From NCBI GenBank assembly GCA_026390735.1, contig JAPLFJ010000026.1:1-64000 (forward strand): 64,000 nucleotides of DNA. Direction: 5' to 3'. This DNA is from Ignavibacteriota bacterium. Lineage in GTDB: Bacteria > Bacteroidota > Ignavibacteria > Tepidaquicellales > Tepidaquicellaceae. A program made the position numbers and the translations under genes. The notes beneath the pieces are model-generated. The model was given only the letters and a program-made list of their open reading frames with translations, did not search any database and was not told the origin of the DNA. Shown here in pieces: positions 1 to 4,272 of this stretch (positions within the stretch are counted from its first letter, which is position 1; each line of letters opens with the position of its first letter).

Positions 1-114
1 CTATTTTACAGATTTTGAGTGTAAACAGTTTTAACAAAGTATTGTTAAAAGAACTATTTAAAAATTCAATTATCACAAATAGTACAGATGACAAAACTAA
101 ACAACTGTTTTTGT

Positions 115-145
115 TTGACTTTTAACGGGACAGTAGTGATATAAT
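115..145 (+). promoter_or_regulatory. Candidate promoter of microprotein/response-regulator cassette 1
   Basis: TTGACT at 115-120 and TATAAT at 140-145 are separated by 19 bases and lie about 30 bases upstream of the first small membrane peptide. The hexamers resemble sigma-70 elements. The spacer is long for E. coli but acceptable in Bacteroidota, whose -33/-7 elements are usually spaced 19-21. This is inferred from sequence only. Confidence 0.4.
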
Positions 146-174: not shown

Positions 175-288
175 ATGGATGGGATAAAAGCATCAAAAAA
201 GGGTAAATTATCAAGGTTTGATATTAGTTTCTTCGTTATACTCTCTACTTTGATAGCAATGTTAGTAGTAGGCTTTATAATTAGGTAG
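175..288 (+). CDS. 37-residue single-span membrane microprotein, copy 1
   Basis: A short frame from ATG at 175 to TAG at 286-288 encodes a basic N terminus (residues 1-14, rich in Lys), the segment SRFDISFF (13-20), and a hydrophobic span ending in MLVVGFII. I recognise no family. It is supported as a gene because a second copy at 1251-1361 keeps SRFDISFF and the ML-V-GFI end while the Lys-rich N terminus has changed, which is what selection on a protein would produce. It lies 38 bases upstream of a receiver-domain response regulator, and the same order is repeated in copy 2, so the two are probably co-transcribed. Predicted topology is N terminus in the cytoplasm with one transmembrane helix. 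A role as partner or membrane anchor of the regulator is inference. Confidence 0.6.
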   Translation: MDGIKASKKGKLSRFDISFFVILSTLIAMLVVGFIIR

Positions 289-326
289 GAATTAATTTTA
301 TTTTTTAAACGATACAATATTTAAAA

Positions 327-719
327 ATGGACAACAAGAAAATATTATTAATCGATGATGATGAGTCAACCCTGGAATCGCTCTCGACTTATTTGGAGGA
401 GTTAGGGTACAAAGTCTTCACCGCAAGAAACGGGATTACTGGCCTTGAAGTCGTGAAGAATCTTTGTCCTGATGTCATCATTTCAGATATACGTATGTCA
501 GGTCTGAACGGAATTGAATTTGCTTATATTATTAAAGGTCTTAAATATGATATACCACTTATACTGATTTCATCATTCGATAATAAGGATAATAAATTTA
601 TTGATAAATGTTCATATGGATATGTGCAAAAACCAATAGATATACACAGTTTGAACGAAATGATAAGTGATGCACTAATGGGAACAGTATTTCCCGGTAA
701 GGATGCAGTTAGTTTTTAA
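327..719 (+). CDS. Single-domain response regulator (receiver only), copy 1
   Basis: A 130-residue CheY-like receiver domain with no output domain. Visible family residues are the acidic pocket DDD at 10-12, phosphoacceptor Asp54 in ISDIRMSG, Ser82/Ser83 in the beta-4 LISSF, and Lys102 in QKPID. Such proteins relay phosphoryl groups or act by protein-protein contact. No histidine kinase is nearby. It follows the 37-residue membrane peptide and is a diverged paralogue of the regulator at 1388-1759. Its C-terminal tail (about GTVFPGKDAVSF) differs from copy 2, and the DNA encoding this tail aligns with the 3' untranslated region of copy 2. The start ATG has no clear Shine-Dalgarno sequence, as is usual in this phylum. 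Confidence 0.9.
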   Translation: MDNKKILLIDDDESTLESLSTYLEELGYKVFTARNGITGLEVVKNLCPDVIISDIRMSGLNGIEFAYIIKGLKYDIPLILISSFDNKDNKFIDKCSYGYVQKPIDIHSLNEMISDALMGTVFPGKDAVSF

Positions 720-747
720 ATAGTTCATTGTTCTCCCTAATAATAAC

Positions 748-809
748 AGGCAAAGTAAGATATGATTTTAAGATTCCTATTCCCCTTAATTATCTTCTTT
801 GCCTTTTTT
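748..809 (+). terminator. Terminator of cassette 1, duplicated in cassette 2
   Basis: GGCAAAG followed by TAAGAT pairs with ATCTTCTTTGCC, giving a bulged stem of about 12 bp, followed by TTTTTTA. The same stem arms and the preceding CATTGTTCTCCCTAATAA recur after the second regulator, although the loop between the arms has diverged. That conservation supports a real structured terminator. Confidence 0.65.
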
Positions 810-880
810 ATATTCCCTTTGTTTAATGTATCGCATTTCTTTCTATTATCCATCCTGATTTTGTTATTTATTATACCTCA

Positions 881-895
881 GTCTCAATTTGAGAC
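881..895. promoter_or_regulatory. GTCTCAA-T-TTGAGAC palindrome, operator-like
   Basis: A perfect 15-bp inverted repeat with the same GAGAC half-site as the array at 1085-1133, about 190 bases upstream of it. It is probably a second binding site for the same unidentified DNA-binding protein. Confidence 0.4.
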
Positions 896-1084
896 ACCTA
901 ACTCCAGATTTCTATGTTTAACCTATTTCCTACGAAAATAATAAACGATTATTTCTCATTTTAATCGTGATTATTAAAAATTAAAGGTTAATTCTGTCTA
1001 ATACCGAACTCTTTACATGTATAATTATCGTTTATCTCACATATTAGTATTTTACATCTATATTGAAGCACTTAACTCATAAAA

Positions 1085-1133
1085 TTGAGACAATTTGTCT
1101 CATTTTGAGACAAATTGTCTCAAAATGAGACAG
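1085..1133. promoter_or_regulatory. Iterated TTGAGACAA palindrome array upstream of cassette 2
   Basis: Five GAGACA half-sites alternate in orientation with roughly 10-base spacing, so the unit repeats every 20 bases. The 17-bp palindrome at 1086-1102 and the 25-bp palindrome at 1102-1126 (12-base arms, one central base) are both perfect apart from the central base, and a fifth half-site starts at 1127. The array ends about 65 bases before a candidate -7 element and 118 bases before the second microprotein, a position fitting an operator. The binding protein is unknown; the receiver-only regulators nearby have no DNA-binding domain. Confidence 0.55.
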
Positions 1134-1198
1134 AAAATTAGTAGTCTCTGAACGTAAGTACCTGATTTAGCCTAAAATCGCGCTTTTTACTTTGGCAT

Positions 1199-1206
1199 TA
1201 TATTTG
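1199..1206 (+). promoter_or_regulatory. Candidate Bacteroidota -7 element for cassette 2
   Basis: TATATTTG fits the TA-N2-TTTG consensus of the phylum's primary sigma factor and lies 45 bases before the second microprotein start. No convincing -33 TTG is seen at the expected distance, so regulation through the upstream palindromes could compensate. This is inference. Confidence 0.4.
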
Positions 1207-1250
1207 ATATACAATTAGTAAAGTAAAACAAAAATAGAAAGGGCTTTAAA

Positions 1251-1361
1251 ATGAACGCAATAGAATCTACAACCGAAAAAAACATTTCAAGATTTGATAT
1301 AAGTTTCTTTACAATCCTATTTCTGATTGTGGGTATGTTAATCGTTGGCTTTATTGTATAA
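1251..1361 (+). CDS. 36-residue single-span membrane microprotein, copy 2
   Basis: ATG at 1251 to TAA at 1359-1361. The product has a variable polar N terminus, then ISRFDISFF (residues 12-20), then a hydrophobic segment ending MLIVGFIV. It aligns without gaps in the conserved part to the peptide at 175-288. It lies 26 bases upstream of the second receiver-domain regulator. The function is unknown. Retention of the same peptide-regulator order in both cassettes argues that the peptide is translated and functionally tied to the regulator. The spacing from the candidate -7 element is about 45 bases. Confidence 0.6.
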   Translation: MNAIESTTEKNISRFDISFFTILFLIVGMLIVGFIV

Positions 1362-1387
1362 ATTAACTAAACCTTTAAAAAACAATT

Positions 1388-1759
1388 ATGGATGCCAAAA
1401 AAATACTTCTGATAGACGATGATGATTCAACTCTTGAATCATTGTCTTCATATCTGGAAGAAATTGGTTTTCATGTGGTCACAGCTCGAAATGGAATCTC
1501 AGGATTGGAAAGCGTTAAAAATATAATCCCGGATATTATTATCTCTGATATTAGAATGTCGGGTTTAAACGGAATAGAGTTTGCATATATTATGAAAGGT
1601 CTGAAATATGATATACCGATAATATTAATTTCTTCCTTCGACAATAAAGAAAATAAATTCATAGATAAGTGCTCGTTTGGATATGTCCAGAAACCAATCG
1701 ATATACATTGTTTAAAAGATATGATTGCCGATGCATTCGTAAAAGATGTTTTACATTAA
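1388..1759 (+). CDS. Single-domain response regulator (receiver only), copy 2
   Basis: A 123-residue receiver domain closely similar to the protein at 327-719. Acidic residues 10-12, phosphoacceptor Asp54, the LISSF Ser pair and the conserved Lys in VQKPID are all kept, so phosphorylation competence is expected. There is no output domain. Differences concentrate in helix 1, the 45-50 loop and the C terminus, where this copy stops earlier (ending KDVLH). It is the last gene of cassette 2, followed by a terminator homologous to that of cassette 1. The cognate kinase is not in the window. Confidence 0.9.
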   Translation: MDAKKILLIDDDDSTLESLSSYLEEIGFHVVTARNGISGLESVKNIIPDIIISDIRMSGLNGIEFAYIMKGLKYDIPIILISSFDNKENKFIDKCSFGYVQKPIDIHCLKDMIADAFVKDVLH

Positions 1760-1807
1760 GTGATACAGTAAGTCTTTAAATAGCTCATTGTTCTCCCTAA
1801 TAATGAT

Positions 1808-1866
1808 AGGCAAAGAAAGATTGATTCTCCAACCTGAATGAAATCATCTTCTTTGCCTTATTTTTA
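1808..1866 (+). terminator. Terminator of cassette 2
   Basis: AGGCAAAGAAAGAT pairs with ATCTTCTTTGCCT (about 12 bp with one bulge), followed by TATTTTTAT. The arms match the terminator at 748-809, while the loop sequence is different. Confidence 0.65.
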
Positions 1867-2997: not shown

Positions 2998-4272
2998 ATG
3001 AAAAAAATCTTACTTGCCGCCCTGTTATTAATCACTGTACAGTTAAATGCACAGGTTGATTTTGATAAGTACTTTACATCGAAAACCCTGCGTTTTGATT
3101 ATACCCGTGCAGGTTATAAAGATGCTAATTACCTTTTCTTCGAACAACTTAAAGAAGAACCTTACTGGTCAGGAAACAAGAATAGTTTAATAGATAAATT
3201 TGATTATGGTCATTATAAATATCTTGTCTTCGATCTGGCTTCAAATGAATTAATCTATTCAAGAGGGTATAATACTCTTTTTGATGAATGGCAGTCAACT
3301 GATGAAGCCAAGAAAATAAGCAGAAGTTTCTATGAAACTGTTGTTTTCCCGTTCCCGCTGAATAAAGTGAGAGTTGAATTATATGAAAGGAAGAATGATG
3401 GCAAATTTGTTAAACAGTTTGAATTTATTGTTGACCCTCAGGATAAATTTATCAGAAAAGAAAAACCTCTCGATTATCCTGTACTGAAAGTTGTCGATAA
3501 TGGAGACCCTTCTAATAAAGTTGATATAGTCTTCCTTCCTGATGGTTATACAAAAGACGAAATGGAGCAGTTTAAAAAAGATGTGGCAACTTATTCTAAA
3601 TACATTTTCGAATGTTCCCCTTATAAAGAAAATAAGGATAAAATTAATATATGGGCTGTCCTTGCTCCGTCTATGGAGTCTGGTGTAGATAACCCGGGAA
3701 CAGGGATATGGAAAAATAATTTACTGGGAATGTCATACTATACACAGGATGTTGAACGCTATCTGATGTCTCTTGATATTAAAACTATCAGAGATGTTGC
3801 GGCTATGGCTCCATACGACAATATTTGTGTTATCTCTAATTCTTCACAGTATGGCGGCGGTGCAATATATAATTATTATACTTCTTTTCCTAACAGGAAT
3901 AATAACGGTGCTTATCTTATTGTTCACGAGTTCGGACACCATTTCTGTGCATTAGGAGATGAGTATTATACTTCTGAAGTCGGTGTTGAAGAATATTATA
4001 AACTGGATGTTGAACCTTATGAGGCTAATCTTACAACCCTGGTTGACTTTGATAAGAAATGGAAAAATATGATGGAGAAAGGCACTCCAATCCCTACTCC
4101 TTCAACCTTAGAAAATAAAAATACACTCGGTGTTTATGAAGGTGGTGGTTATGTCCCAAAAGGCGTTTACAGACCTAAACAGGACTGTAGTATGAAATCA
4201 ATATCGTATGATAATTTCTGTCCGGTTTGTACAAAAGCCATTATCCAGATGATTGATTACTACTCTAAATAG
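2998..4272 (+). CDS. Secreted M64-family (IgA peptidase-like) zinc metallopeptidase
   Basis: A 424-residue protein with a signal peptide (1-19, ending QLNAQ), an N-terminal beta-rich region (about 20-160, matching the M64 N-terminal domain layout) and a catalytic domain. The zinc site is HEFGHHF with His310, Glu311 and His314, followed by LGDEYY, the hallmark of peptidase family M64. Late Cys residues (CSM, CPVC) may bind metal or form disulfides. M64 members include Clostridium IgA peptidase and many Bacteroidota exoproteins of unknown substrate. There is no T9SS sorting domain, so it is periplasmic or exported another way. It follows a secreted TPR protein closely and ends at a strong terminator. 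Confidence 0.88.
   Translation: MKKILLAALLLITVQLNAQVDFDKYFTSKTLRFDYTRAGYKDANYLFFEQLKEEPYWSGNKNSLIDKFDYGHYKYLVFDLASNELIYSRGYNTLFDEWQSTDEAKKISRSFYETVVFPFPLNKVRVELYERKNDGKFVKQFEFIVDPQDKFIRKEKPLDYPVLKVVDNGDPSNKVDIVFLPDGYTKDEMEQFKKDVATYSKYIFECSPYKENKDKINIWAVLAPSMESGVDNPGTGIWKNNLLGMSYYTQDVERYLMSLDIKTIRDVAAMAPYDNICVISNSSQYGGGAIYNYYTSFPNRNNNGAYLIVHEFGHHFCALGDEYYTSEVGVEEYYKLDVEPYEANLTTLVDFDKKWKNMMEKGTPIPTPSTLENKNTLGVYEGGGYVPKGVYRPKQDCSMKSISYDNFCPVCTKAIIQMIDYYSK

Follow-up and report, generated by a model that had tools for sequence, protein, structure and literature searches.

This locus raises the question of why a stand-alone receiver should be encoded, twice in succession, directly behind a very small membrane peptide, and whether the two products form a pair. 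The window, the whole stretch of 64,000 nucleotides analysed from an Ignavibacteriota bacterium, is the start of contig 50 (C50) in the 4.0-Mb draft genome G000. It contains two adjacent cassettes on the forward strand, each a micropeptide gene followed by a single-domain receiver (single-domain response regulator, SDRR), with the open reading frames exactly as first described. Micropeptide 1 (positions 175-288, 37 aa, hydropathy maximum 2.71) and micropeptide 2 (1251-1361, 36 aa) have one predicted membrane span each. Receiver 1 (327-719, 130 aa) and receiver 2 (1388-1759, 123 aa) belong to PF00072 (75.2 and 71.6 bits, cut-off 30.2), which spans residues 6-113 in both, with no other domain. 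Shine-Dalgarno-like motifs, read from the sequence, precede peptide 1 (AGAAAGG, 160-166, +) and peptide 2 (AGAAAGGG, 1236-1243, +); AGAAAGG is also found before most congeneric peptides, while the receivers carry no clear motif of this kind. The peptide and receiver genes are separated by 26-38 nt.

The receivers of the two cassettes are 79% identical and the peptides 50%, with SRFDISFF and ML-V-GFI retained in both peptides while the rest diverged, as the initial annotation had noticed. Its proposal that the peptides are selected as proteins agrees with pN/pS values below 1, both between the window copies (0.38, synonymous sites near saturation) and between the orthologues of the congeneric genomes G001 and G003 (0.03; 37 codons compared, with 16 synonymous differences and 2 non-synonymous ones). 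Most other pairs gave 0.2-0.6, with synonymous sites near saturation. An untranslated or chance open reading frame is ruled out by these ratios together with conservation in 14 genomes. G004 also carries two tandem cassettes, in the same order as in the window, and its receiver 2 is 85% identical to window receiver 2, more than the 79% between the two receivers of the window, so the duplication is older than the split between the window genome and G004.

The peptides range from 29 to 38 aa and share a basic/polar N-terminus, a near-invariant acidic residue opening one hydrophobic span, and a Gly 3-5 residues from the end. Profile search detected the family in 32 operons, in 14 of the 29 family genomes and in 7 genera; a wider search through 294 genomes of the class returned weak matches only, mostly inside long open reading frames, and no convincing member outside the family. 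No known family was found in Pfam, NCBIfam, PHROG or PDB sequences for the 37 members scanned. Scattered single matches reached E 0.0066 (Pfam) and 0.0084 (PHROG) at best, none common to more than two members; those to RAMP4 (E 0.01) and SecE (E 0.016) reflect no more than a shared single span and were disregarded as evidence. The peptide family is new and undescribed, and a search of the literature other than subscription papers found no earlier description of the peptide/receiver pairing.

Is the peptide then the partner of the receiver? Of the 32 peptide operons, 16 have a receiver immediately after the peptide and 15 have none, and one operon runs off its contig. The 16 loci with a receiver represent 5 genera and two receiver types, the outcome that the initial annotation had asked of a search for the peptide beside receiver-only genes in other genomes. 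The peptide-receiver module is real, under selection and recurrent. In G026 and G028 the receiver beside the peptide is of a different type, so the association with receivers came about, or was retained, with two receiver lineages. Receiver-less pairs occur in G003, G004, G010, G011 and G022. G000 itself has five near-identical tandem 32-aa membrane peptides with no receiver (G000:C46:21571-22244, L079:1769-2445), with a ribosome-binding site for each copy and dyads and a sigma-54 promoter upstream, and it also has one single receiver-less copy. Such receiver-less arrays exclude a peptide restricted to receiver loci: the pairing is recurrent but not exclusive.

The initial annotation had envisaged a dedicated membrane partner that tethers, gates or inhibits the adjoining receiver. 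Its place directly upstream of the SDRR in all 16 loci, with either SDRR type (G026 and G028 included), and the short intergenic gaps in the window would suit such a partner, but the 15 receiver-less loci, among them the five-copy array and the single copy in G000, and a conserved peptide part that is the same with and without an adjoining receiver make it unlikely. Receiver-less loci and receivers of two lineages argue that peptide and receiver are linked through their regulon rather than as an obligate pair. The tandem, near-identical hydrophobic peptides of about 32-37 aa could also recall a membrane-active toxin or bacteriocin-like product. We consider this very improbable: the peptide genes have no visible antisense RNA, immunity gene or export gene next to them, share operons with signalling genes under an activator, and match no Pfam, NCBIfam or PHROG family. 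A long imperfect GTCACCCTGTTACTTT repeat array immediately precedes the lone receiver-less peptide gene (L121, G000:C46:16000-16500).

Cassette 2 is preceded by a sigma-54 (-24/-12) promoter, TGGCATTATATTTGA (1193-1207, +; 2 mismatches in 10), and by enhancer-like dyads at 1098-1110 (TCTCATTTTGAGA) and, 20 bp from the first, at 1118-1130 (TCTCAAAATGAGA), with a distal dyad at 882-894 (TCTCAATTTGAGA). A sigma-70 promoter for cassette 2 was rejected, the conserved sigma-54 site being present instead. The sigma-54 sites have the form TGGCAY-N5-TTG(C) and the dyads, which stand in tandem, the form TCTCANNNTGAGA; up to 2 mismatches were allowed for each in the peptide-operon counts. A sigma-54 site was detected upstream in 25 of the 32 peptide operons (0.85 expected from shuffles) and a dyad in 20 (2.9 expected); many of these operons are related and do not count as independent observations. 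By eye, two that were missed carry TTGCA for TGGCA (G008:C139 and G023:C115). The sigma-54 site is absent for the peptides of G006, where two family members on C106 (L125:2768-2875 and 3464-3571) have a sigma-70-like promoter instead; behind each comes a further, diverged open reading frame for a small hydrophobic product.

The same promoter code extends over the genome. Pattern searches of G000 gave 53 TCTCANNNTGAGA dyads versus 7 for the reversed pattern, and of the 37 dyad clusters 24 lie no more than 160 bp from a sigma-54 site (0.82 expected), a set that includes the cassettes (two clusters) and the peptide array (one). The dyad-to-promoter spacing is mostly 50, 60, 70 or 80 bp, in a helical phase of about 10.5 bp (Rayleigh p ~1e-6, 24 promoters). 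The dyads mark about 20 further sigma-54 promoters in G000, mostly of exported-protein genes and other micropeptide copies: 17 of the marked promoters face genes with a signal-peptide-like or lipoprotein-like N-terminus (by eye and hydropathy), and the targets include phosphoesterases, an MG2-domain protein and T9SS-tailed proteins. A T9SS-specific regulon was considered and set aside, since such tails are common in G000 anyway (at least 150) and few targets carry one; we limit the claim to exported proteins. A carbamate kinase and a likely carbamoyltransferase, named by resemblance, are preceded by tandem dyads and a perfect sigma-54 site (L066, G000:C1:85500-88180), which suggests amino-acid catabolism within the regulon. 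The rpoN gene is present in all 28 genomes tested (in G000 as PF04552 at C1:68158-68634).

The candidate activator is encoded next to the cassettes. In G002, G003, G004 and G009 the locus reads REC-HisKA-HATPase kinase, AtoC-type sigma-54 activator (EBP), peptide, receiver, TPR protein and M64 peptidase. The regulatory order in the relatives is kinase, EBP, dyads, sigma-54 promoter, micropeptide, SDRR and hairpin 3'UTR. The exported TPR protein (1956-2990, +) and the M64 peptidase (2998-4272, +; PF09471, PF16217) are syntenic neighbours outside the cassette in the window as well, while in G000 the genes for the kinase and the EBP sit on contig C60, which terminates in one end of an insertion sequence. 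Kinase, EBP, peptide and SDRR were counted as syntenic in G000, G002, G003, G004 and G009.

The window begins with the other part of this insertion. Positions 1-138 (+) belong to a DDE-type (IS4-like) insertion sequence, of which they form the right end and encode the transposase C-terminus (ORF 15-125), and copies of this segment on C28, C39 and C54 are 97-100% identical. A full copy (L243:897-2223, 1.3 kb, DDE transposase) has a left end 100% identical to the C60 contig end over 139 bp, and L243 also matches the first ~140 bp of the window. The 9-bp target-site duplication ATATAATTT (139-147) is present at both junctions, here and next to the insertion end of C60. The target duplication and the synteny, rather than an assembled read spanning the junction, suggest that C60 and C50 are adjacent. 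The same insertion sequence breaks the assembly at the G000 contig ends C28, C39, C50, C54 and C60 (L243-L245).

The initial annotation had given both cassettes the same order of promoter, peptide, receiver and terminator. The peptide, the receiver and the terminator stem are indeed common to both, but the promoter of cassette 1 is not inside the window: the native one is on C60, and the insertion sequence separates it from cassette 1, lying just downstream of the sigma-54 promoter, at about the expected transcription start and in the same orientation. Cassette 1 is presumably now read, if at all, through the insertion sequence or from a fortuitous promoter at its border. A sigma-70 promoter-like sequence near 115-145 was discarded because it straddles the insertion-sequence junction. 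Two separate inputs, or insulation between pathways, had been proposed for the two copies; the identical dyads and promoter class of both cassettes point instead to one shared input.

The EBP (PF00158, 229.6 bits) resembles the activators of NtrC/AtoC-type regulons in its REC-AAA-Fis architecture, and the system resembles these regulons in its upstream dyads and -24/-12 promoters. It differs in the sigma-54-contact motif: the GAFTGA position reads GSFTDA in the window genome and G[AS]FTDA in relatives, a form found in 11 of 11 EBPs (G000:C60, L031:700-2055; G001-G004, G009, G011, G019, G023, G026 and G028). NorR with the corresponding G-to-D change (G266D) still activates and escapes repression by its regulatory domain (PMC2941729). 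The dyad excess is greatest in G000, G004, G009 and G002, the genomes with the EBP beside the cassette; dyads also occur (up to 11) in genomes without the kinase/EBP-cassette module. We infer from adjacency and shared distribution that the neighbouring EBP is the dyad binder; once phosphorylated, it would bind the dyads and switch on both cassettes.

We hold with high confidence that this promoter architecture and regulon are part of the best explanation of the cassettes. As a whole, this explanation describes them as tandem sigma-54-dependent operons ending a two-component locus, with the SDRR in feedback and the peptide as an effector, and to the whole we give about even confidence.

For the SDRR, we suggest tentatively, and with somewhat less than even confidence, a feedback element on the kinase and EBP, because of the analogy to Osp and the complete phosphorylation site (D10-D12, D54, S82 and K102 in P0004 numbering, invariant in 11 of 11 aligned sequences). 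The SDRR would drain phosphoryl groups from the kinase or inhibit it directly, and so limit the EBP in a negative feedback. Osp of Rhodobacter sphaeroides is an SDRR made under its own system's regulator, and it inhibits the kinase CckA (PMC9430884). The cassette promoter and dyads appear to fit the same activation by the own system's regulator, and the negative feedback shown for Osp is proposed here. In contrast, Osp has neither a micropeptide nor sigma-54, CckA is a different hybrid kinase, and the activity of Osp was shown biochemically while that of the present SDRR is inferred.

A brake is not the only role for which such a receiver is suited. The local kinase has an N-terminal REC domain and no membrane span, so its input may arrive by phosphotransfer; the solved chains nearest to the SDRR by profile are Spo0F, and some SDRR-peptide loci are distant from kinase/EBP genes (G002:C9, G008:C176, G011:C2 and G023:C238). 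These points would suit a Spo0F-like relay to the kinase REC or a CheY-like output on another target. Against them, a relay intermediate under the activator that it feeds would give positive feedback, and the locus revealed no histidine phosphotransfer protein. We regard the relay or output role as somewhat unlikely and prefer the feedback element.

The same kinase bears on the peptide. MgrB is a PhoP-induced membrane peptide that inhibits PhoQ (PMC2789325), and the micropeptide is likewise small, single-span and probably controlled by its own system's regulator, so a regulator-made inhibitor of the sensor kinase could be imagined. This is improbable, since the local kinase is soluble (maximum 19-residue hydropathy 1.3), which makes membrane contact impossible and eliminates any action that the peptide would exert on it via transmembrane contacts; the idea would need a membrane kinase encoded elsewhere that feeds the REC domain of the local one. 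Unlike MgrB, the present peptide family also comprises multiple copies, frequently in arrays, and is co-transcribed with a receiver. We suggest instead that the micropeptide may be an abundant inner-membrane effector of the regulon and not the private partner of the SDRR, because its copy number and arrays suggest dosage over one-to-one signalling. We put this general membrane effector forward tentatively, a little short of an even chance; the co-regulated genes make an envelope or export function the most probable one.

The transcript of each cassette ends in a structured 3'UTR. A UCAUUGUU-CUCCCU-AAUAAUGA hairpin (725-746, + in cassette 1; 1785-1806, + in cassette 2) is followed by a terminator hairpin (748-810, +, AGGCAAAG...CTTTGCCT-T6, and 1808-1866, +). 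The AGGCAAAG...CTTTGCCT stem follows each receiver, confirming the shared terminator stem described initially. The two hairpins, the terminator loop usually being C-rich, were found after 8 of 8 congeneric receivers, and a 19-nt core of the first is invariant in all of these 3'UTRs despite saturated synonymous sites in the adjacent gene. In the terminator stem three pairs have changed on both sides; hairpin 1 does not vary in either loop or stem and so shows no covariation. The simplest reading is that the 3'UTR is under selection as RNA (or DNA). Elsewhere in the 29 genomes the 3'UTR model gave one weak match only, in G009 (E 0.019), where by eye a similar TTCTCCCT precedes the terminator. 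In G026 (L046) and G028 (L047), of a different genus, a U-rich CUCCC motif resembling the loop of the 3'UTR element stands just before the terminator, downstream of the EBP-adjacent receiver. No Rfam family matched the 3'UTR above its cut-off, and sub-threshold matches to eukaryotic microRNAs, on palindromes, were dismissed as chance.

By analogy with GlnZ, an sRNA from the 3'UTR of the sigma-54/NtrC-driven glnA mRNA (PMC9731577), it is possible that an sRNA is released from the cassette 3'UTR. In both, transcription from a sigma-54 promoter with an NtrC-type activator runs into a structured 3'UTR and an intrinsic terminator; the sequences are unrelated, and processing and targets are hypothetical for the cassette 3'UTR. 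The ccaF1-CcsR operon of Rhodobacter sphaeroides (PMC10253847) similarly co-transcribes a small-protein gene with sRNA-like hairpins and a terminator, but it has an RpoH promoter, an RNA-binding DUF1127 protein instead of a membrane peptide, and no receiver.

Taken together, we find a new peptide family inside a known kind of regulon, in an unusual combination of outputs. The cassettes are probably the feedback and membrane-output arm of a larger exported-protein regulon and not a sealed two-protein device. It is conceivable, although we consider it doubtful, that one activator-driven transcript would give three outputs, namely a membrane micropeptide of the new family, a kinase-feedback SDRR and a 3'UTR-derived sRNA with C-rich loops, and that the same activator would flood the membrane with receiver-less array copies when the exported proteins switch on. 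With unannotated membrane peptides of 29-38 aa and a defined promoter code, the peptides of a whole bacterial family become listable and testable. The locus provides a concrete candidate for autoregulation of a sigma-54 activator through stand-alone receivers outside Proteobacteria, and the dyads and -24/-12 sites provide clear target promoters for the activator family with the G[AS]FTDA sigma-54-contact motif.
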